Origin: Haloplanus ruber
GTDB lineage: Archaea > Halobacteriota > Halobacteria > Halobacteriales > Haloferacaceae
Reading direction: 5' to 3'
Assembly (NCBI RefSeq): GCF_024494725.1
Contig: NZ_JANHDK010000004.1
Span: 124,001 to 188,000 of the forward strand
Length of the DNA stretch: 64,000 nt
The notes beneath the pieces were generated by a model. The model worked only from the letters and a program-made list of their open reading frames with translations, was not told the origin of the DNA and made no database searches. Both the position numbers and the translations under genes were made by a program. Below, piece by piece: positions 23,180-33,022 of the stretch (positions are counted from its first letter, which is position 1; every line of letters starts with the position of its first letter).

Positions 23180-23897
23180 CTACCCGATTCCAGTTTCCTT
23201 CTTCAGCAGCGTCAGTGTGTTGTCCGATGTAATCACCGGTGAGTGCTCATACTCGCCAGTCAACTCGGCTTGGACGAGTAGATCGACAGCCCGCCAGATT
23301 GAGTAGAGGAGACGGGCGAATGCGAAGTAAAAGAACCTGAGCCCGAAATCTTTCGAGATCGTCGCAGCCATGAACCGCTTAATCGATTTGTACCGCTCTC
23401 GATCTCCCAGCGGTGGCCGTACTCCGTGAGGTGTCCACTCTCTCAATTCGTCATGAATACCGAGTACTGCCGGTGATCATCGTGCTCGGAGTCCTCTTTC
23501 CGACGGTAGATCAGCGTCGTCTCGTGCCATTCGTTCTTGCCCAGATGGAGTTTACGGTCGGTCTCGTATCGATCCCGGTCTCGTTGGAGCAACCGCTTGG
23601 CCTGGGCTTTCTCGCTGGTCTGCATCCGCTTGGGAACGACATACGATAGACCACGCTGGCTGAGCATCTCCAGGACGTGCTGGCTGTCGAACTCCCGGTC
23701 CATCAGTACGTTATCGACGTGGACAAGACTCTCTGCTGAGTCGAGCAGATCCTCGACGATTTCCTTGCGTGACTCGCCTCTTCGAACTGGCCGCGCATCA
23801 AGCACGAGTGGGACAGCGTTGCCGACCAACGCGCCTCTGGGAGGAGTGAAATATGACACCACTGCCAGGGTCCTCTCAACGAAAACTACAGAGTCCT
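23180..23897 (-). pseudogene. IS4-type (ISH3-like) transposase remnant
   Basis: 5'-truncated: the frame begins after a TAG at about 23898 and reads VVSYFTPPRGALVGNAVPLVLDA and HVDNVLMDREFDSQHVLEML (second catalytic Asp). A TGA at 23443-23445 stands after VFMTN, where Arg is expected. The frame then continues LTEYGHRWEIESG, and one base is missing at about 23391 before YKSIKRFMAATISKDFGLRFFYFAF. Joining the frames restores the YREK motif Y-x2-R-x3-E-x6-K. It is a different, more decayed relative of the transposase at 3749. Its truncated end touches the MFS gene's 3' end. Confidence 0.85.
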
Positions 23898-23901
23898 AGT
23901 G

Positions 23902-25193
23902 TTAATCACAAGTTCCTGTGTCCGGCAGAGTTTCGGTCGCGGGTGCTGGTGGTTCGTGGGTCCCGAAGTTAGGATGGGTCTCCTCCATCCAGACGTACAC
24001 GATTGTCCCCGATACGAACATCAGGAGTGCAGTCGCGTAGAACGCAGCCTCGGCACTCACGAACTCCATCGTGAGTCCAATCAGGATCGCGCCGACGCCA
24101 TAGCCAGAGTCACGCCACATCCGATAGACGCCCATCCCGGTCGCGCGCCATGTCGGGTGGGCCGCATCGCCCGGGGCTGTCATTAGATTCGGGTAGAGTA
24201 ATGCCATCCCGAGACCCGACACCCCAGAGAGCACGACCCACGGGAGATACCCGTCGACGAGAACCATCCTGAGGACGCCCATGCCGGCGAGGAACATCCC
24301 GGCAAGAACCGGCGGTCGGCGTCCGATGCGGTCAGCGAGTCCACCGGTCGCAATCTGGAGGAAGTACATCGCGCTGTGGACGGCCACGACGAATCCAATG
24401 GCCGCAATTCCGAGTCCCTGACTGGTGAGATACAGCGGGACGGCAAGCCAAAACAGCGTGTCGACGAACTTCTCGATATGACCCGCCTGTGCCGCGGCGA
24501 ATAGTGTCTTGTCGCCGTAGGTCGCCCGCTTTAGCACCTCGACGAACGGAAGATTCGCGTCATGGTGCCCGTCGTCATCGATTTCTATCTCTGCGAGCTG
24601 GACGGTTTCCTTGATTAGGAAGATGGAGATGAGAAACGCCAGCACGACGACGGCGGCGAGGAAGTAGAACGGTTCGGGTCGGAGGCTCGTCCGGGCCGCG
24701 ATGACGCCCGTAACCCAGGCACCGACGGCGACACCGCTGTACCCGAGCGCCTCGTCAATACCGACGGCTAAGCCTCGCTGTGAGGGGCCCGCAATATCGA
24801 TCTTGGCGTTGATCGCCATACTCCAGGTCAGCGCCTGATTAATCCCCAGCAGGACGTTCCCGAGGGTAATCCAGCCCCAATTCGGCGCAAAGATGAGGAT
24901 GATCGGGAGCGGAAGTGCGGTTGCCCATCTGAAGATGAGTACGGGCTTGCGGCCGTATTCACGCCCCATTTGCCGGCATAGAGATTGAAGAGTGCTTTGA
25001 CGAATCCGAACGAAACGACGAACGAGCCGATGACGAGGAGCGACTCGACACCGAGCACGTCGCGACCCAGAACCGGGACGACCGCCCGCTCAGATCCGAT
25101 GGTCAATCCGGTGGCGAACACGAGCAGGACGTGCAGTGAGAGCTGCCTGAGGTGCTCACGGATGCCCTGTTTGTGTGCGAGTTCCGTGCTCAT
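23902..25193 (-). pseudogene. MFS transporter, frameshifted
   Basis: From MSTELAHKQ at 25193 the first frame gives helices 1-2 and ALFNLYAGKW. One base is missing at about 24965, and the rest (EYGRKPVLIFRWA onward, ten helices) reads in the next frame to 23902. The joined product is about 430 residues with the MFS loop motif GRKP between helices 2 and 3 and GLADRIGRRPPVLAG between 8 and 9. The substrate is unknown; the position next to rhodanese-MBL genes suggests a sulfur compound. The frame is open upstream of the Met into a stub carrying LELGPNNCA. Confidence 0.8.
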
Positions 25194-25320
25194 GGATTGC
25201 TCAACGGCGCAGTTATTGGGACCTAGTTCCAGCTCGGCCAGTTCGTCGGCTGGGACCGATTCTTGTCCCACGTTCGTTCGCTTGACGCGCTGGAGGTTCG
25301 GTGGAACTCCGGAAATTCGT
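25194..25320 (-). pseudogene. C-terminal stub of a lost rhodanese-MBL gene
   Basis: In frame with, and directly upstream of, the MFS start, the sequence reads PPNLQRVKRTNVGQE...ELAELELGPNNCAVEQS. It aligns with the tail of the rhodanese-MBL protein at 30370 (PANYEDIIATNLGQQ...FELELGPNNCAAS). Only the last 40 or so codons remain, suggesting that a tandem copy was deleted and left its tail fused to the MFS frame. No promoter or start specific to the stub is visible. Confidence 0.65.
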
Positions 25321-25359
25321 GGTAGGAGTGGAGCTCCCTTGCCACGAAATTACGCGGCA

Positions 25360-25446
25360 TTAGTTCGCCGCGCAGTTGTTGGGCCCAAGTTCGAGCGCCT
25401 CGACATCGCTACCGGGCTGTTCTTTGCCCCAGTTGATTTGCTTGAT
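25360..25446 (-). other. Untranslated tail of the rhodanese-MBL gene beyond an in-frame TAG
   Basis: After the TAG at 25447-25449 the same frame stays open for 28 codons (IKQINWGKEQPGSDV then EALELGPNNCAAN) and ends at TAA 25360-25362. The content matches the C-terminal tail of the paralogue at 30370, so this was coding until a point mutation made the amber codon. See the gene at 25447. Confidence 0.75.
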
Positions 25447-26484
25447 CTAGTTGTAGTTCGCAGGCTCGTCCGAGAGACTCGCGAGGATAGTCTCGACGAA
25501 CGTCTCCTCGTCGCCGTCTTCAACGTAACTCAGGAGTACGTTCGTCGTCTCTGCCTGAAGATCGCCGAGTGCCGTCGCAAGCGGTCGGACGTCCTCATCA
25601 CTGAAGTGGCCAGGGAGGACAACGGTCTCGTCTGAGAGGTCGGTTAGCGTGGTGAGACTGTCGAACAGCTGGCTGGATGCCTCTCGAATGGCCTCTTCGG
25701 AACTGTTCTCAAGATCAGGCCGGCCGACGCTCCGCAGGAACAGCGTGTCTCCAGAGAGAAGTGCGTCGCCGAATCGGAACGAAACGCTCCCAGGCGTGTG
25801 GCCGGGCGTGTGTAGCACATTGAGCGCTCGGTCGCCGACGGAAATGGTGTCTCCATCGACGATTTCGGTGACCTCTTCGAGTTCGCCTGCATCCTCGGGA
25901 TGGAGGTAGTAGGGAATGTCGAGTTCGCCAGCGAGACGGCGGGCGCCGGAGATGTGGTCGGCGTGCGCGTGTGTGTCAGCGACCCCGATGATGTTGAGGT
26001 CGTTGTCGTCCGTGACGTTCAGGTACTCATCAATGCACTGAGTCGGGTCGACCACGACGGCTTCGTCACCATCGTGTGCGAGATAGGACACACAGCCGGT
26101 TCCGGGGCGGACAATCTGAAGGAGGCCATCAGTGCTAGTAACATCGTATTCGCGGTGGACACGCCCCCAAGCGTTCATGCCGTTGAGGATGGATTTCGCA
26201 TCGAATCCGTGGTCACAGAGAAATTCAGCAGCACGGGCAGACGTAACGCCTCCGACACAGACGACGGCAATCTCCTCATTCTCCGGAAGATCATCGAGAT
26301 GTGCCTCGAGCCCCGAGTAGTCGTACTCGAGGAGTTCGTCGTAGATCGGGATGTTCGTGCTACCCGGAATTTGCCATTCCTCGTGGGCATCCTTGTTGCG
26401 GACGTCAAGGACGAATATGTCCTCAGCGCCGTCTTCAGCGATACGGCGGGCAACTTCGGACGCCCCGACAGCAGTATTTCCCAT
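25447..26484 (-). CDS. Rhodanese-metallo-beta-lactamase fusion (persulfide dioxygenase-like)
   Basis: 345 residues from MGNTAVGASE; the longer frame starts before the TATA box. Rhodanese domain at about 5-112, with loop Cys76 in AVVCVGGVTSARA. MBL domain at about 120-330, with THAHADH (171-177), a later His in LHTPGHTPGS, Asp in LLSGDTLF and His in VLPGHFSD, the ETHE1-type mono-iron ligand set. ETHE1 enzymes oxidise glutathione or other persulfides to sulfite; the fused rhodanese would hand over sulfane sulfur. The C-terminal LELGPNNCA tail is cut off by a TAG. A CCAATACT motif sits between the TATA box and the start. Confidence 0.85.
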   Translation of the reverse strand: MGNTAVGASEVARRIAEDGAEDIFVLDVRNKDAHEEWQIPGSTNIPIYDELLEYDYSGLEAHLDDLPENEEIAVVCVGGVTSARAAEFLCDHGFDAKSILNGMNAWGRVHREYDVTSTDGLLQIVRPGTGCVSYLAHDGDEAVVVDPTQCIDEYLNVTDDNDLNIIGVADTHAHADHISGARRLAGELDIPYYLHPEDAGELEEVTEIVDGDTISVGDRALNVLHTPGHTPGSVSFRFGDALLSGDTLFLRSVGRPDLENSSEEAIREASSQLFDSLTTLTDLSDETVVLPGHFSDEDVRPLATALGDLQAETTNVLLSYVEDGDEETFVETILASLSDEPANYN

Positions 26485-26487
26485 TAT

Positions 26488-26499
26488 GTCCAATACTAC
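26488..26499. promoter_or_regulatory. CCAATACT motif at the rhodanese-MBL promoter
   Basis: GTCCAATACTAC lies 4-15 bases upstream of the ATG at 26484 on the minus strand, with a TATA-like ATATAAA at 26512-26518. An operator overlapping the transcription start would be expected to repress. The core CAATACT recurs at other sulfur genes in this window. Confidence 0.5.
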
Positions 26500-26666
26500 T
26501 CGCTCAATGGGATATAAATGTGTTGGATAGTAGATCACGGATACCACCAATATGCGCTTATCTGCGATCAATTAGTATTTTCAGGTGATCTCAATACTCC
26601 AAAGAAACAAACGAGACAATATTTGGGTCGCCAATTATTTCACACTACGCACATTACTATACACTC

Positions 26667-27230
26667 ATGGGGTATCACACATTCGACGCCGCCAAAGCGA
26701 AAAAGCTAGAGGATGCTGCGACACGCTATCGGTACATCTCGCGAGAAGAGCTTCTCTGGGCACTTGATCCGACAGCATCCGAGACAGTCGCTGATCTGGG
26801 TAGTGGAACTGGCTTCTACACAGATACCGTCGCACCTCACGTGGATCAGGTCTATGCAGTTGATATTCAGGAAGATATGCATGATTACTACCGTAAAAAG
26901 GGTGTTCCGAAGAATACGGAACTCGTCACGTCTGGCGTCGATAATCTTCCCTTCAAGTCAGGCGAACTGGATAAGGCAGTCTCGACGATGACATATCATG
27001 AGTTCGCGAGTGCTCAGGCACTTTCCGAACTTGCACGCGCTCTCGCTTCCGACGGCCGTCTCGTAATCGGCGATTGGTCAGCGGACGGCACCGGCGAAGA
27101 TGGCCCGCCACTGGAAGAACGCTTCACCACCGATGAGGTAACGTCAGCGCTTCGCGATGCCGGGTTCGAGATCGACTTCCGAGCAACACGACCGGAAACA
27201 TTCCTCCTGGTGGGCGTCTACGATGAGTAG
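26667..27230 (+). CDS. SAM-dependent methyltransferase (class I)
   Basis: 187 residues. Motif I is ETVADLGSGTGFYTDTVA (about residues 37-54), with acidic motif II VDIQEDMHD and SGVDNLPFKSGELDKAV. The Rossmann order is normal for ubiquinone/menaquinone-type or small-molecule methyltransferases. The end overlaps the start of a rhodanese gene by 8 bases, so the two form one operon, possibly methylating a sulfur or metalloid compound (inference). Confidence 0.85.
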   Translation: MGYHTFDAAKAKKLEDAATRYRYISREELLWALDPTASETVADLGSGTGFYTDTVAPHVDQVYAVDIQEDMHDYYRKKGVPKNTELVTSGVDNLPFKSGELDKAVSTMTYHEFASAQALSELARALASDGRLVIGDWSADGTGEDGPPLEERFTTDEVTSALRDAGFEIDFRATRPETFLLVGVYDE

Positions 27231-27591
27231 AATTGGACCATCGCGATTGGACGAGCGTCGGTCTAATGGCGAGATGTTCATCCTCGACGTCCGTCCAGAA
27301 CAGCAATACCAAGAGGACCATATTCCGGAAAGCTACAACGCACCAGTATACCACGATCTCCAACGAGGAAATATCGAGGCGCTCGATCAGTATCTGAACG
27401 CGATTCCAGATGACACGGAAATTATAACGGTATGCAAGGCTGGGATTGTTGCGCGAAAAGCGACTGAGTGCCTCGAGGAAGAAGGGTATACTGCTACGAC
27501 GCTTACTGGAGGATATACAGGGTGGCGACAGTACGAGCGAAATACAGTCCTGTACCGAATCGTCTCGTTCTTCCGAAAGGCAGTTTGGTAA
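27223..27591 (+). CDS. Single-domain rhodanese
   Basis: 122 residues from MSRIGPSRLD at 27223, inside the end of the methyltransferase gene (ATGAGTAG overlap). Typical features: EMFILDVRPEQQYQEDHIPES (residues 16-36) and the active loop VCKAGIVARKATECL, with catalytic Cys in VCKAG. The loop CKAGIVAR has the length expected of sulfurtransferases, not of Cdc25-type phosphatases. Confidence 0.85.
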   Translation: MSRIGPSRLDERRSNGEMFILDVRPEQQYQEDHIPESYNAPVYHDLQRGNIEALDQYLNAIPDDTEIITVCKAGIVARKATECLEEEGYTATTLTGGYTGWRQYERNTVLYRIVSFFRKAVW

Positions 27592-27703
27592 CTGTTAGAG
27601 CGAGATGCCCGGGTTTTGATGGTTCACACTACCTAAAATTGAGTCACTCGTCCTAGGTATTCTCACCCATCACAGGGCTATAACTCAATTGTGAAACGTC
27701 GAA

Positions 27704-28108
27704 CTAGCTCTCAGCCGATGCGGCAGGCTGCGGTTCGTTCTCGTATTTCTCTTCGAACTCACCGATGAGCTGCCCCATTTTCGCGTACCAGTCATTGAGC
27801 GTTCGCTGCATCTCGTTCGTGATCTCCTCAGCATCGCGTGGGTGGTAGACGTGGTAGTAGCCACCCTGTTCATAGTTCACCTGTTCCTTCTGGATGAAGC
27901 CAGCCTGGAGCAGGCGCTGAACGCTACGATACGCGGTTGACCGTTCACGGTCAATCTGTTCCGCGATTTCGTCGACGGTGAGTGGTTCCTGATGGTCTTG
28001 AAGCAGCTGGAAGATGTCCTTATCAATCTCCTTGAGATCGTGGAAACACTCCAGCAGCCCCTCACACTGCATGTCTTTCCGGAGCATCTCGCTCATTGAG
28101 TTAGCCAT
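27704..28108 (-). CDS. Winged-helix regulator with CX5C pair, candidate sulfide/persulfide sensor
   Basis: 134 residues. The N-terminus has C15 and C21 (MQCEGLLECFHDL), then a winged helix (residues 25-85) with the recognition helix in RERSTAYRSVQRLLQAGFI, and an acidic tail. The fold is TrmB/MarR-like. Two cysteines spaced by five residues at the edge of the DNA-binding domain recall persulfide- or disulfide-switched repressors of sulfide oxidation (SqrR, BigR), though those belong to a different subfamily. It lies amid the sulfur genes, and a CACAATACTGT motif is 50 bases upstream of its start. A regulatory role for the cluster is inferred. Confidence 0.7.
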   Translation of the reverse strand: MANSMSEMLRKDMQCEGLLECFHDLKEIDKDIFQLLQDHQEPLTVDEIAEQIDRERSTAYRSVQRLLQAGFIQKEQVNYEQGGYYHVYHPRDAEEITNEMQRTLNDWYAKMGQLIGEFEEKYENEPQPAASAES

Positions 28109-28156
28109 TACTAACGGTAGATAGGAGATACAGCCTCAAAAGTGTTTGTTTAGTTG

Positions 28157-28170
28157 GCACAATACTGTAC
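28157..28170. promoter_or_regulatory. CACAATACTGT motif upstream of the winged-helix regulator
   Basis: GCACAATACTGTAC at 28157-28170, upstream of the regulator start at 28108. The 11-mer CACAATACTGT is identical to that at 39453-39463 in front of cydA. A good candidate for an autoregulatory site. Confidence 0.5.
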
Positions 28171-28174
28171 CGAT

Positions 28175-29173
28175 CTATGACGTGGTGAGTCGACACCACA
28201 TTCCAGTCTCGTCGTTCCGGAGTCGACAGATAGCAGCGAGGACAACAGCGCTGCTGACGAGGAGCGCAGCCCCGAAGATGAGTACGGTACTCACTGTATT
28301 GAGAAAGTCAATACCGTAAACCGCCCCTATCTTATTCGAGGCGACTGCAACGCTCCCGGCGAGCAGCATCGCAGCGAAGTATCCCTTGATTTCGTCTTCA
28401 TCGACAAGATTCGTCGCCCCTGCCCCGATGCGTGCGCCGAGCGCACTTCCGATGAGCAAGAAGGCGACGACAGGTACCGCAACAGATCCAGACCGTGCGT
28501 ACGTGAACGCGCCGAACGCTCCCGAAATCGTGATCTGGAGGATGTCAGTTCCGACCGCGATAGCGGCAGGGACACCGAGTCCGTACATCATCGCCGGCAT
28601 CAGGAGGAACCCACCGCCAACGCCGAGGAATCCTGAGAGGACCCCAATAACGAGCCCAATCCCGAAGATTATCGTCGCAGAGACGCGGACACCACCACGT
28701 AGCGTCACCATCGGCGGAATGTGGATCGACTGGACTCGATCTGCAAGGTCATTACTGGCTTCGGTGGTCTCAGCATCGGACCATGCGTCCCGTAGCGTGA
28801 GCAACCCGACCGCGGCGAGAAGTCCGACGTAGGCGACGTTGATGAGGAGATCAGCCATCCCAGTGGCCTCCAGGAAGAACACGACACTCTTCCCACCCTC
28901 GATGCCAAGCGTCATCGCGACCGTCATGATTACCGCGAGCTTGTAATCGACCTGCCCGTGGTCACGGTGGCGCAGCGCACCGATAACGCTCGTCCCGAAG
29001 ACGAACGCGAGGCCGCTCCCTACAGCTACCGTCGATGGATAGCCCATGACGAGCAACGCGGGCGTCACGAGGAACGACCCACCCATCCCGAAAAACCCGA
29101 AAAGGGTCCCGATGAGTAGCCCGAACCCAATGAAGACCGCGACCATCACGAGGCTCATGCCGAAGATGGCCAT
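28175..29173 (-). CDS. TSUP-family (TauE/SafE) sulfite or sulfonate exporter
   Basis: 332 residues with eight or nine helices and the two glycine-rich repeats of the family: IGTLFGFFGMGGSFLVTPALLVMG (near residue 20) and VIGVLSGFLGVGGGFLLMPAMM (near residue 180). Related proteins move sulfite, thiosulfate or sulfonates across the membrane. It follows a DUF7512-like mini-protein by two bases on the same strand, and the YeeE/YedE pair lies further upstream. This suits export of sulfite produced by the persulfide dioxygenase-like enzymes (inference). Confidence 0.88.
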   Translation of the reverse strand: MAIFGMSLVMVAVFIGFGLLIGTLFGFFGMGGSFLVTPALLVMGYPSTVAVGSGLAFVFGTSVIGALRHRDHGQVDYKLAVIMTVAMTLGIEGGKSVVFFLEATGMADLLINVAYVGLLAAVGLLTLRDAWSDAETTEASNDLADRVQSIHIPPMVTLRGGVRVSATIIFGIGLVIGVLSGFLGVGGGFLLMPAMMYGLGVPAAIAVGTDILQITISGAFGAFTYARSGSVAVPVVAFLLIGSALGARIGAGATNLVDEDEIKGYFAAMLLAGSVAVASNKIGAVYGIDFLNTVSTVLIFGAALLVSSAVVLAAICRLRNDETGMWCRLTTS

Positions 29174-29175
29174 CT

Positions 29176-29325
29176 TTAGGCACCCCCGATAGCGTCGATC
29201 ACAGCTGATCCGACCGTACTACTGAGCACACCGTACACGGCGTACAGGGCGATAGCCTCCGCAAGGACAAGTCCCACGGTGGCGACAGCCTGTGCTGAAC
29301 CGCTCATACTCTCGAGTCCGAACAT
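29176..29325 (-). CDS. Membrane mini-protein of the TSUP operon (DUF7512-like)
   Basis: 49 residues, MFGLESMSGSAQAVATVGLV followed by LAEAIALYAVYGVL and ending IDAIGGA. A single helix of about 25 residues with the glycine/alanine pattern of a small transporter subunit. It stops two bases before the TSUP start, so the pair is translationally coupled. The family is known next to TSUP exporters in haloarchaea as I recall. Probably an accessory subunit. Confidence 0.7.
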   Translation of the reverse strand: MFGLESMSGSAQAVATVGLVLAEAIALYAVYGVLSSTVGSAVIDAIGGA

Positions 29326-29367
29326 GTTATGCGATCTCCTTAATCCTGTTTTGTAATTCCATTATTA

Positions 29368-29380
29368 CACAATATTACTG
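29368..29380. promoter_or_regulatory. CACAATATT motif upstream of the TSUP operon
   Basis: CACAATATTACTG at 29368-29380 lies about 43 bases upstream of the mini-protein start (29325). It matches the CAATAYT core seen at the other sulfur promoters. Confidence 0.4.
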
Positions 29381-29417
29381 ACCTGCGTCGATTCTGTGAG
29401 GGGGCGAAACCATTGGG

Positions 29418-29870
29418 TTAGCTGCCTCCAGTATTGCCGCCTATGAGCGAACGGACATGCCCTTGGGCGTATGCGCCGAGGAACATCCCCGCGATTGCCC
29501 AGAGAATGGGGTAGTTGCCGACCCCGAAGCTGGCGTAGGCCGCGCCGGGACAGATTCCAGAGAGCCCCCATCCGACACCGAAGATCACGCCGCCAACGAC
29601 GACGTTCCGGTCGAACTCTTTCACACGCCGGGTGTACTCGCTAGCAGTGAGCGGCGCGCGGTTAAGATATCGCGTCGCAACAGCGAACGTGACACCCGTA
29701 ACGGCGGCCGCTCCTCCCATGACGAACAGGAGGCCGAAGTCCTCGAATTGGAGGAAGTCCAGCACGACTTCCGGACGAGCCATCCCGCTGATGGCCAGCC
29801 CAAGGCCGAAGATTAGTCCCCCGACGTAGATGACGGGGAGGAACCACGGGCTTTGAGTCTCATTGCTCAT
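29418..29870 (-). CDS. YeeE/YedE-type sulfur transporter half (second)
   Basis: 150 residues from MSNETQSPWF. It carries the half-transporter signature GLGLAISGMARPEVVLDFLQF and the repeat motif GVGWGLSGICPGAAYASFGVG, with Cys in SGICPG. YeeE/YedE (TsuA-like) proteins pass thiosulfate ions via cysteines lining the pore. Its start overlaps the stop of the next gene upstream by four bases, so the two halves probably pair. Confidence 0.85.
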   Translation of the reverse strand: MSNETQSPWFLPVIYVGGLIFGLGLAISGMARPEVVLDFLQFEDFGLLFVMGGAAAVTGVTFAVATRYLNRAPLTASEYTRRVKEFDRNVVVGGVIFGVGWGLSGICPGAAYASFGVGNYPILWAIAGMFLGAYAQGHVRSLIGGNTGGS

Positions 29871-30367
29871 GGTGATACCCCCAGTGCTTGGACGAGTTGC
29901 GCGGTTCCGATGGCGAACACCATGAAAGTCGCGACGTTCACGAGCGACGTGTTCGAGAGCGAGCCGACGCCACAGACGCCGTGCCCGGACGTACAGCCCT
30001 TCCCAAGACGAGTCCCGACGCCTACCAAGATACCGCCGCCGAGCAGCCGCCACCACTGGACATCAGTCGTCCAGATCGTTGGATCGGGGGCGAGCACGAG
30101 TCCCCAGATGGCGGCGCCACTGACGATGCCGAGCGTGAACACGACCCGCCAGTTCCGTGACTGAACGTACTTGAACCGGTTGAACCGGTCGACATCCGAG
30201 ACGTACGAGAGCGTCGACTCAAGGAACGTACTCGCACCCGCAATGATCCCGGTCGCGAGATAGATAACCGCCGCGCCGAGCCCGACGAGCAACCCGCCGA
30301 GGAGGTACGGCAGTATACCTCGCGGGAAGAAATCGCTGACTGCGAGTAGTGGGACGAGTGTCTCCAT
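29867..30367 (-). CDS. YeeE/YedE-type sulfur transporter half (first)
   Basis: 166 residues. The conserved motif is GVGTRLGKGCTSGHGVCGVGSLS (about residues 116-138), with Cys in GCTSGH and GVCG, which in TsuA relays thiosulfate by S-S hydrogen bonding. An N-terminal cluster of two helices precedes a cytoplasmic loop. Translationally coupled to the second half (4-base overlap) and two bases after the rhodanese-MBL gene stop, so the operon runs rhodanese-MBL, half 1, half 2. It may import thiosulfate or persulfide for the enzyme. Confidence 0.85.
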   Translation of the reverse strand: METLVPLLAVSDFFPRGILPYLLGGLLVGLGAAVIYLATGIIAGASTFLESTLSYVSDVDRFNRFKYVQSRNWRVVFTLGIVSGAAIWGLVLAPDPTIWTTDVQWWRLLGGGILVGVGTRLGKGCTSGHGVCGVGSLSNTSLVNVATFMVFAIGTAQLVQALGVSP

Positions 30368-30369
30368 CG

Positions 30370-31563
30370 TTAGTTCGTCAACGCCTCTTCGCTCGCGGCA
30401 CAGTTGTTCGGACCAAGCTCCAGCTCGAACGCTTCTTCGTCGTCAGGAGTCTGCTGGCCGAGGTTCGTCGCGATGATGTCCTCGTAGTTCGCTGGCTGCG
30501 GCGGCATATCAGCGACGATGAACTCGACGAACTCGTCCTCGTCCATAGTGAGTGCATCCATCCGCTCAACTAGGTCCCTTAGTTCCGCTGTATAGGTTCC
30601 ATCGTCGTTCGAGGTCGCCGAGTCACTGAAGTGAGCGGGCGCGACGATCGTATCCTCGGGAAGCGTCAGAACTTGCTCCTGGAGGCTTTCGTAGAGCGTC
30701 CGAGCTGCATCCTTCGCAGCCTCAGGGTCCTCGAGGTCCGGGCGAGCCACGCTCTCGGTAAAGAGACCGTCACCGGTGAACAGGACGTTACCGACTTTGT
30801 ACGTGGTCATTCCGCTCGTATGACCGGGTGTCGAGATGACCTCGATCTCCGTATTGCCGAGAGGGAGCGTGTCAGTATCCGTGACGGTCTCGTAGGGTTG
30901 GTCGTACTCGACACCGCGCTCGACGGCCGCCTCGGGAAGCACGGCGGTCGCGGCTGTCTCGTCGGCGAGGTCGCGGACACCGGAGATGTGGTCGGCGTGG
31001 ATGTGTGTATCGAGCGCGTACACAAGGTCGGCACCGATGACGCGTGCGTCCTGCTCGTATTCGTCGGTGAACGCCCGAAGTGGGTCAATAACGGCCGCCT
31101 CACCGTCCGAAGCGACGAGGTAGGCAAGACAGCCACTGGACGGCCGCCGGTACTGGGCGATTGTGGCGTCGGCAGCCACGTCGAACTCCTGATACTCGTA
31201 GATGCGCGCCCACCCCTTCATACCACGGGCGAGGTGATCTACGTCGTAGCCGTCCTCCTCGAGATATTCGGCAACGAGTTCACTCGATCCACCCTTCGCA
31301 CAGAGAACCGTAATGCGCTGGTCGTCAGGGAGCTCGGCATCGAGATCTTCTGGAATCCCGTCGAGCAGCTGGAAGTACGGGTAATTCACGATCTCGACGT
31401 TCTCAGCGTCGATATGCCACTCTTCGAAGTCACTCTCCGAACGCACGTCGAGGATGAGTACCTCCTCGCCGCTGTCGATTCGCTCCTTGAGTTCCGTCGG
31501 CGTCGTCGATGCGACCGTTGCGTCCGAGTTGGACTCTTCCTTTTCGGTCATCGTCATCCTCAT
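30370..31563 (-). CDS. Rhodanese-metallo-beta-lactamase fusion with LELGPNNCA tail
   Basis: 397 residues. Rhodanese domain at about 18-130 with Cys88 in TVLCAKGGSSELVAE. MBL domain at about 135-370 with THIHADH (186-192), the His of STPGHTSGM, Asp in LFTGDGLF and His in VAPAHFSD. The tail FELELGPNNCAASEEALTN is separated by an acidic linker. Function as for the paralogue at 25447: probable persulfide dioxygenase coupled to sulfur transfer. The tail Cys is conserved in all three copies of this window. First gene of an operon with the YeeE/YedE pair. The promoter faces tusA. Confidence 0.87.
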   Translation of the reverse strand: MRMTMTEKEESNSDATVASTTPTELKERIDSGEEVLILDVRSESDFEEWHIDAENVEIVNYPYFQLLDGIPEDLDAELPDDQRITVLCAKGGSSELVAEYLEEDGYDVDHLARGMKGWARIYEYQEFDVAADATIAQYRRPSSGCLAYLVASDGEAAVIDPLRAFTDEYEQDARVIGADLVYALDTHIHADHISGVRDLADETAATAVLPEAAVERGVEYDQPYETVTDTDTLPLGNTEIEVISTPGHTSGMTTYKVGNVLFTGDGLFTESVARPDLEDPEAAKDAARTLYESLQEQVLTLPEDTIVAPAHFSDSATSNDDGTYTAELRDLVERMDALTMDEDEFVEFIVADMPPQPANYEDIIATNLGQQTPDDEEAFELELGPNNCAASEEALTN

Positions 31564-31612
31564 CTACCTACTGCTCACAAATAAGGCTTTGTATAGTAGT
31601 GCATTCACTATG

Positions 31613-31740
31613 CAACACTATTGGGGACAGTATCGCTTTTTAACCATGAATCGGGCATGATTCTTAATAACTCGCGTATAGGGTATTGCTGAATATACGA
31701 ACTACTACCGATATACTTTTCTACTGTCGACCAATATTGG
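31613..31740. promoter_or_regulatory. Divergent promoter region between rhodanese-MBL and tusA with CAATATTG palindrome
   Basis: The AT-rich interval contains the perfect ten-base palindrome CCAATATTGG at 31731-31740, 17 bases upstream of the tusA ATG (31758), and a related half-site AACACTATTGG at 31615-31625 toward the minus-strand gene. A TATA-like GATATACTTTT lies at 31710-31720. It is the most symmetrical copy of the CAATAYT motif and is well placed to be a repressor site. Confidence 0.55.
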
Positions 31741-31757
31741 GTAATGAAGTCAATACC

Positions 31758-32000
31758 ATGACGCAGTACGAAGCCACTGAGACTCTCGACGTAAAGGGCG
31801 AAAACTGTCCGATGCCGGTCGTCAAGACGAAGCAGAGTATCGACCAGCTCGCTGAAGGCGAGATCCTCGAGGTCCTTGCGACTGATCCAGGTAGCATGAG
31901 CGACCTGGGCGGCTGGGCCGACACGACTGACGGCGTCGAACTGGTCGATCAACAGGAGGGCGACGGCGTGTACACGCACTACGTGCGCAAGACCGAATGA
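31758..32000 (+). CDS. tusA: TusA-family sulfur carrier protein
   Basis: 80 residues from MTQYEATE. The sulfur-accepting motif is GENCPMPVVKTK (CPxP, Cys at about residue 17), followed by the usual alpha/beta core. TusA relays persulfide sulfur from a sulfurtransferase to DsrE-type partners. The stop overlaps the next start (ATGA), so it is coupled to the DsrE-like gene. Divergent from the rhodanese-MBL operon, which would be its likely donor. Confidence 0.9.
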   Translation: MTQYEATETLDVKGENCPMPVVKTKQSIDQLAEGEILEVLATDPGSMSDLGGWADTTDGVELVDQQEGDGVYTHYVRKTE

Positions 32001-32575
32001 CGATGAGTGCAGACACTCCCGACGCGTCACCCGACGACGCACCCTCGCGTGCAGAACTGGCCACACGTGTCGACGAACTCGAAAACGCGCTCGAGGAGGC
32101 CACCACCGAGGACGACGGCAAGAAGATGAGCATCATCGCCACGAAGGGAACGTTAGACATGGCGTACCCGCCACTTATCCTCGCGAGTACGGCAGCAGCG
32201 TTCGGCTATGAGGTGACGGTCTTCCACACGTTCTGGGGGCTCGACATCCTCCACGAGGAACGCTCCAAGAACTTGCAGTTGAGTTCGGTCGGCAACCCCA
32301 ACATGCCGGTCCCGAATGCCATCGCTGCGCTCCCTGGGATGGACCGCGTGACGACGAAGATGATGGAAAAGAAGATCGAGGACAACGACACGGCTACGAT
32401 CGAGGAACTGATCGACACGTCGCTCGAGATGGGCGTCGAATTCCAAGCGTGTCAGATGACCATCGACCTAATGGACTACGACGAGGACGACTTCTACGAC
32501 GGCGTGACGACAGGTGTCGGTGCCGCAACGGCCATCCAAGATATGGCCGACGCCGACATCCAGCTCCTCATCTAA
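31997..32575 (+). CDS. DsrE2-like peroxiredoxin-family sulfur relay protein
   Basis: 192 residues; an N-terminal acidic coiled segment (about 1-40, ELATRVDELENALEEAT) precedes a DsrE/DsrF fold starting KKMSIIATKGTLDMAYPPLI. The conserved Cys is in EFQACQMTIDLM (about residue 152). DsrE2 proteins receive sulfane sulfur from TusA. The start overlaps the tusA stop by four bases, giving an operon tusA-dsrE2. The genuine initiation may be MTMSADT or MSADT. Confidence 0.85.
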   Translation: MTMSADTPDASPDDAPSRAELATRVDELENALEEATTEDDGKKMSIIATKGTLDMAYPPLILASTAAAFGYEVTVFHTFWGLDILHEERSKNLQLSSVGNPNMPVPNAIAALPGMDRVTTKMMEKKIEDNDTATIEELIDTSLEMGVEFQACQMTIDLMDYDEDDFYDGVTTGVGAATAIQDMADADIQLLI

Positions 32576-32650
32576 TTCTGAAGTTTCTTCGGTTCCAGTC
32601 GTAGGCCCAGGCAAGCGTATGGTCGAGCCCTATGCGTGAAATTTATGAAT

Positions 32651-32687
32651 TAGTATTGTGTAGTCTTGCTTGTATTAACCAATACTA
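32651..32687. promoter_or_regulatory. Inverted CAATACTA pair upstream of a rhodanese
   Basis: TAGTATTG at 32651-32658 and CAATACTA at 32680-32687 are exact inverted repeats 21 bases apart, overlapping the likely start region of the rhodanese at 32666. This would bind one dimer on each half-site or a looped tetramer. It matches the other sulfur-promoter motifs. Confidence 0.5.
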
Positions 32688-33022
32688 TAATCTCTCCGGA
32701 AGAAGTGAAGTCCCGCCCTGACGACGTGTTCATCCTTGACATTCGGCCAGCATACAGTTTCGAGGAAGAACACATCGATGGGAGTTACAATCTCCCGGTT
32801 TACGATCAACTCAAAGGAAAGAACTTCATTGGGCTGGACGTCTCAGCAGTAGAGCTGCCTGATGACCAGGAGATTGCCGTGGTCTGTTTCAGTGGGTCAA
32901 ATGCCGCGATTGCTGCGTCCCGACTTCGTGAACACGGCTTCAATGCAAAGCGAATGATCGGAGGAATCAACGGCTGGCAATCCGAGACTACTGGGACTAT
33001 CCAGACCGCTCAAACGGTCTGA
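32666..33022 (+). CDS. Single-domain rhodanese
   Basis: 118 residues if read from the TTG at 32666; a later start near 32705 (VKSRPDD) would leave the domain intact. Motifs: DVFILDIRPAYSFEEEHIDG and the active loop EIAVVCFSGSNAAIAASRL, with Cys in VCFSGS. The operator-like repeat overlaps the 5' end, so the true start may be downstream of it. Lies between the DsrE2-like and DUF302 genes in the same direction. Confidence 0.75.
   Translation: MLVLTNTIISPEEVKSRPDDVFILDIRPAYSFEEEHIDGSYNLPVYDQLKGKNFIGLDVSAVELPDDQEIAVVCFSGSNAAIAASRLREHGFNAKRMIGGINGWQSETTGTIQTAQTV

Follow-up and report, generated by a model that had tools for sequence, protein, structure and literature searches.

A cysteine-bearing C-terminal tail as a signature of YrkH-type rhodanese-MBL proteins

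Introduction

In the haloarchaeon Haloplanus ruber, the peptide LELGPNNCA, with a single cysteine, recurs in a short stretch of DNA that encodes rhodanese-MBL proteins. Is this peptide a genuine part of these proteins, and what might its cysteine do? The original prediction described a swinging arm that passes sulfane sulfur between the rhodanese Cys and the iron site. We address these questions using the window, a stretch of 64,000 nucleotides from contig NZ_JANHDK010000004.1, and a wider set of related proteins. The rhodanese-MBL family is uncharacterized and occurs in nearly every haloarchaeon that we examined as well as in Bacillus, where YrkH, encoded in the yrkEFHIJ cluster, has been named a hypothetical second PDO (PMC9918477). 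The open literature that we searched yielded no biochemical description of YrkH and no paper with the letters of the motif.

Results

A degenerate-codon search of the whole window gave three minus-strand matches to LELGPNNC(A), at positions 25207-25232, 25370-25395, and 30398-30423, compared with a chance expectation of 0.01 (mean over shuffled sequence). All three are preceded by the spacer P(A/P)N...N(L/W/V)G and an acidic linker, and the codon search and translations thus confirmed both the places and the spacers that had been predicted. The motif is indeed common to the three tails, but they are not three working copies: a nonsense codon severs one from its gene, and another is a relic; only the tail of the gene at 30370 belongs to an intact gene. 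A fourth copy elsewhere in the genome forms the end of a family gene at C3:382830-383951, with the terminal sequence FELELGPNNCAADG.

The intact gene (30370-31563, minus strand) encodes a YrkH-type rhodanese-MBL protein of 397 amino acids, as judged from its Pfam Rhodanese and Lactamase_B domains, the family alignment, and an AlphaFold model. The protein comprises a rhodanese domain (residues ~21 to 119), an MBL domain (~144 to 311), a helical segment (~328 to 367), and the tail (370 to 397). The codon search and family alignment place the tail motif at residues 381 to 389 (30397-30423, minus strand), with the Cys388 codon at 30400-30402; the codon for the rhodanese active-site Cys88, within a CAKGGSS loop, lies at 31300-31302 on the same strand. 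The order of rhodanese before MBL, together with an E-x-G-x-N-x-C tail, is found in this protein and in the C3 paralog, and in the product of the 25447 gene solely when its TAG codon is ignored. Next to the intact gene, domain searches identified a TauE/SafE gene and two genes for sulfur transport of the YeeE/YedE type (28175-30367, minus strand), in an order identical to that on the Halobacterium noricense plasmid (L216) that served as our comparison relative, and divergently oriented sulfur-trafficking genes for TusA, DrsE_2, and a single-domain rhodanese (31686-33022, plus strand). Positions 28175 to 33022 therefore form a compact sulfur-handling island of TauE, the YeeE pair, rhodanese-MBL, TusA, DrsE_2, and rhodanese, an arrangement shared with the H. 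noricense plasmid and, to some extent, with the Bacillus yrk cluster. TusA, DsrE-like, YeeE, TauE, and single rhodanese proteins recur as neighbors at other family loci, with TusA present within 6 kb at 47 of 80 related loci and DrsE_2 at 44 of 80.

The second rhodanese-MBL gene (25447-26484, minus strand) probably starts at the ATG at 26484, although its listed open reading frame begins at a TTG at 26571, and is cut by a TAG codon at 25447-25449 when compared with its intact ortholog (L216:15054-16178). Translation and ortholog comparison show that the former tail (25360-25446, minus strand) stays open past this codon to a TAA at 25360-25362, with LELGPNNCA at 25369-25395. The orthologs have Glu at the TAG site (EPANYNEIKQINWG), encoded by GAG in L216, and the codon is thus a lone GAG-to-TAG nonsense mutation or a sequencing error and not a case of recoding. 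Pyrrolysine insertion or other recoding was rejected because the supposed set contains all three stop types, the orthologs read Glu, and no pyrrolysyl-tRNA synthetase (PylS) was detected above the family cut-off in the genome. With no PylS above cut-off, translation of the second gene should stop short of its tail, provided that the TAG base is genuine. A conserved stop readthrough, suggested by single in-frame stops that a first family search returned for many relatives, was also rejected, as these are normal terminal stops just past GPNNCAA. Hence the motif does lie beyond an in-frame TAG, as had been described, but in a gene that is broken by mutation or misread by sequencing.

The third copy had been described as a stub fused to an MFS gene. 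The in-frame join is present, but the stub is what was left of the C-terminus of a third rhodanese-MBL gene after a deletion. This relic (25194-25314, minus strand; PPNLQRVKR.NVGQESVPADELAELELGPNNCA) was recognized from intact orthologs elsewhere and is in frame with the MFS start. A complete rhodanese-MBL gene with the end PPNFERVKRTNVGQESVPADELAELELGPNNCAAE* directly precedes the MFS gene in L216 and many other genomes, and intact orthologs of the third gene lie immediately upstream of the MFS gene at L048, L052, L055-L057, L066, and L216:17047-18159. In the relic, the stop codon has changed from TAA to CAA, so that its frame continues into the MFS ATG. Alignment to L216 by blastn located the deletion junction at 25315-25359, where 45 bases stand in place of about 1.86 kb; window position 25360 corresponds to L216 position 16178 and window position 25314 to L216 position 18041. 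The deleted segment (L216 16178-18041) held an HTH gene and most of the third rhodanese-MBL gene. The MFS transporter gene itself (23902-25193, minus strand; identified by domain search) is disrupted near 24963, where a single base present in L216 has been deleted. Three lesions, namely, the MFS frameshift, the TAG at 25447, and the 1.86-kb deletion, thus fall within a 1.5-kb zone, and the MFS/25447 region is decaying. The decaying segment is flanked by transposase-like open reading frame fragments (23180-23862), which are possible mediators of the deletion.

To what proteins does the motif belong? A loose codon pattern applied to 60 haloarchaeal genomes gave 108 sites, 107 of which are the C-terminus of a family protein, while a reversed control pattern gave none in the same genomes. 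The remaining site (G006:C1:1440863) lies in what a deletion has left of a family gene, a rhodanese start joined to the tail, and we therefore rejected an occurrence of the motif in unrelated proteins; the predicted specificity for rhodanese-MBL proteins held. This locus (L108, G006:C1:1439000-1442500), an internal-deletion relic that retains the rhodanese start and LELGPNNCA, is a second independent case of a leftover tail. Complete members that the loose pattern missed carry the one-residue variants EMELGPNNCA, EAELGPNNCA, and IELGPNNCA, all with the Cys kept, and one damaged family gene reads GPINCA. The family extends across Halobacteria, Chloroflexota, Actinomycetota, Bacillota, and Aenigmatarchaeota (one Aenigmatarchaeon), some of these labels being taken from the named record used as the center. 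A restriction of the motif to archaea was accordingly dropped, since Chloroflexota, Actinomycetota, and Bacillota carry the tail.

The predicted conservation of the cysteine was likewise borne out in the family alignment of 209 near-full-length members, in which all 209 have Cys88 and all 207 intact tails have Cys388; the two members without it are the TAG-truncated gene of the window and one that runs into a contig end. These two are the only universal cysteines in the family. The tail Cys is also present in 117 of 117 members found without motif bias and in 24 of 25 representatives after clustering at 50% identity, the exception again being a contig end. Among 22 alignment columns that are never substituted, 4 lie in the tail (E382, G384, N386, and C388), and the remainder are mostly catalytic; the tail residues N387 and A389 tolerate change, while Cys388 tolerates none. 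We conclude that the tail is a genuine family signature, which defines the C-terminus of YrkH-type rhodanese-MBL proteins.

The tail is coupled to the N-terminal rhodanese domain. It is present in 208 of 208 complete rhodanese-MBL proteins and in 0 of 37 relatives that lack an N-terminal rhodanese (MBL-only, MBL-rhodanese, type I, and type II), in which two apparent exceptions proved to be frameshifted rhodanese-MBL genes. The relatives on viral contigs were all of type I or II and had no such tail. When the MBL parts were compared, only R140, E382, N386, C388, and A389 were near-invariant in the family yet rare in MBL-first relatives. If tail Cys and rhodanese are functionally linked, one expects family specificity, absolute conservation of the Cys, and co-occurrence with an N-terminal rhodanese, all of which were seen; conservation and co-occurrence thus support the view that the two are probably functionally tied.

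Both domains appear to be catalytically equipped. The rhodanese has an active-type CxxGxxS loop, with C88 joined by G91 in 193 and S94 in 202 members, and is predicted to be competent for sulfur transfer. The MBL ligands H187, H189, D191, H192, H248, D265, and H311 are unchanged in 209 of 209 members, and R274, which we take from the alignment and the ETHE1 numbering to be the equivalent of ETHE1 R163, is conserved in 208 of 209. The family therefore has both the metal-ligand set and the Arg expected of a persulfide dioxygenase, and we regard the MBL domain as persulfide-dioxygenase-like, with a putative dioxygenase activity and presumably iron as the metal. In the family alignment, the glutathione-binding Tyr that follows the final ligand His in PAHDY has been lost, and position 313 is usually occupied by Ser, Ala, Thr, or Gly.

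An AlphaFold model of the full protein (mean pLDDT, 93.3) was used to assess the tail. Residues 371 to 380 have a pLDDT of ~94 and include a helix at 375 to 381, residues 381 to 390 are at ~80, and residues 391 to 397 are at 76. With the rhodanese domain removed, the helix persists and the values are 95 for residues 366 to 375, 86 for 376 to 385, and 59 for 386 to 395, which is weak evidence that the Cys end depends on the rhodanese domain, as pLDDT is a proxy for contact and the compared blocks are out of register. The linker measures 12 to 15 residues (14 in 156 of 209 members). This near-fixed length and the predicted docked helix do not favor a freely flexible arm, and together with the moderately ordered Cys end they led us to abandon the swinging-arm part of the original prediction; small movements of the tail are possible.

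Discussion

Tentatively, we regard sulfane-sulfur transfer to the metal site as the best single explanation for the tail Cys. A YrkH-type enzyme consists of an N-terminal GlpE-like rhodanese and a persulfide-dioxygenase-like MBL domain, with the tail as a defining part that is predicted to be ordered. The short acidic helix is predicted to dock onto the MBL domain and would place the E-x-G-x-N-x-C end at or near the rhodanese interface. There, Cys388 would accept sulfane sulfur from Cys88 and present the resulting protein persulfide to the metal site, probably iron, replacing in tethered form the low-molecular-weight thiol (glutathione) of type I enzymes. For this uncharacterized family, a role of Cys388 as a tethered persulfide acceptor between Cys88 and the metal site is a plausible but tentative proposal that falls somewhat short of probable. 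It is favored by the universality of Cys88 and Cys388, the obligate pairing of tail and rhodanese, the intact MBL ligands, the rhodanese-dependent pLDDT of the Cys end, and the sulfur-related neighbors; the near-constant linker and the helix docked in the model argue against it to the extent that it would need large swings. Taken by itself, the invariance of Cys388 is just as compatible with a structural or redox role.

The normal substrates of persulfide dioxygenases are persulfides of small thiols, glutathione persulfide among them, and no use of glutathione is known in haloarchaea. Given this and the loss of the glutathione Tyr, the delivery of sulfane sulfur in organisms without glutathione would be explained by a built-in Cys that is as invariant as the catalytic residues. 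A more specific reading, that the thiol cosubstrate is built into the enzyme, with the tail Cys persulfidated by the in-cis rhodanese and oxidized at the metal site, is unlikely as it stands. If true, such organisms would need no free thiol, and the tail would take the place of glutathione persulfide in protein-tethered form.

The first alternative is that the tail is a structural clasp that fastens rhodanese and MBL domain, or one subunit and another, to each other, with the Cys retained for packing. The ordered, docked helix predicted by AlphaFold is in keeping with this, as are the dimer role of the C-terminal extension of P. aeruginosa PDO (PMC12856154) and the invariance and family specificity of both E382 and R140, which suggest a salt bridge; with no R140 substitution in 209 members, an R140-E382 contact is a testable guess. 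Packing, however, rarely demands a Cys, and no Ser, Ala, or Val replaces it in 207 sequences from five phyla, while the adjacent N387 and A389 vary. We therefore consider a clasp rather unlikely.

Cys388 might instead act as a redox or regulatory thiol, a disulfide, mixed disulfide, or persulfide of which switches the enzyme. Such a role has been proposed for type I enzymes, whose C-terminal Cys (hETHE1 C247 and AcPDO C224) is strictly conserved and needed for activity, AcPDO C224 being thought to pair with C87 (PMC6060420). A C-terminal thiol can thus matter in an MBL fold, even though the positions do not align. The VPxNxxCG motif that carries the type I Cys is not found in the family: hhalign pairs N367 with its Asn, and the aligned stretch that follows has no Cys. 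Since the profile alignment puts the type I Cys ~20 residues earlier, the tail Cys is not supported as a positional equivalent of ETHE1 C247. Moreover, the sole frequent candidate partner, Cys145, is replaced by Asp in 17 members in which the tail Cys is retained, and a Cys388-Cys145 disulfide was rejected as a universal role. A redox switch is thus distinctly unlikely. Finally, a docking peptide that exchanges sulfur with another protein encoded nearby, for example TusA or DsrE, is highly improbable, because the tail, despite the frequency of these neighbors (47 and 44 of 80 loci), is unchanged at many loci that lack them and follows the protein's own rhodanese domain.

The tethered-acceptor proposal can be set against known systems. 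The nearest solved folds are CstB, 3TP9, ETHE1, and BpPRF, each of which covers the MBL part only, with a query TM of about 0.5. The CstB/3TP9 type offers the nearest solved MBL domain but places MBL before its rhodanese domains, the type III order, unlike the N-terminal rhodanese of our family, and lacks the Cys tail. BpPRF (persulfide dioxygenase-rhodanese fusion, 5VE3-5VE5) likewise combines an MBL dioxygenase with a rhodanese, but the latter is C-terminal and no such tail follows. Type I ETHE1 shares the metal ligands, the R163-equivalent Arg, and a conserved C-terminal Cys; it differs in lacking a rhodanese, in the aligned position of that Cys, and in its PAHDY Tyr. Bacillus YrkH is similar in its N-terminal rhodanese, MBL domain, tail, and DsrE, TusA, and TauE neighbors, while the halophile copies have added YeeE neighbors and several paralogs. 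A Lysinibacillus plasmid copy of the YrkH type ends in EMEIGPNRCAVR, and a Chloroflexota clade has Asp in place of the MBL GC-motif Cys145 (PARGD) and GKNICA in place of GPNNCA.
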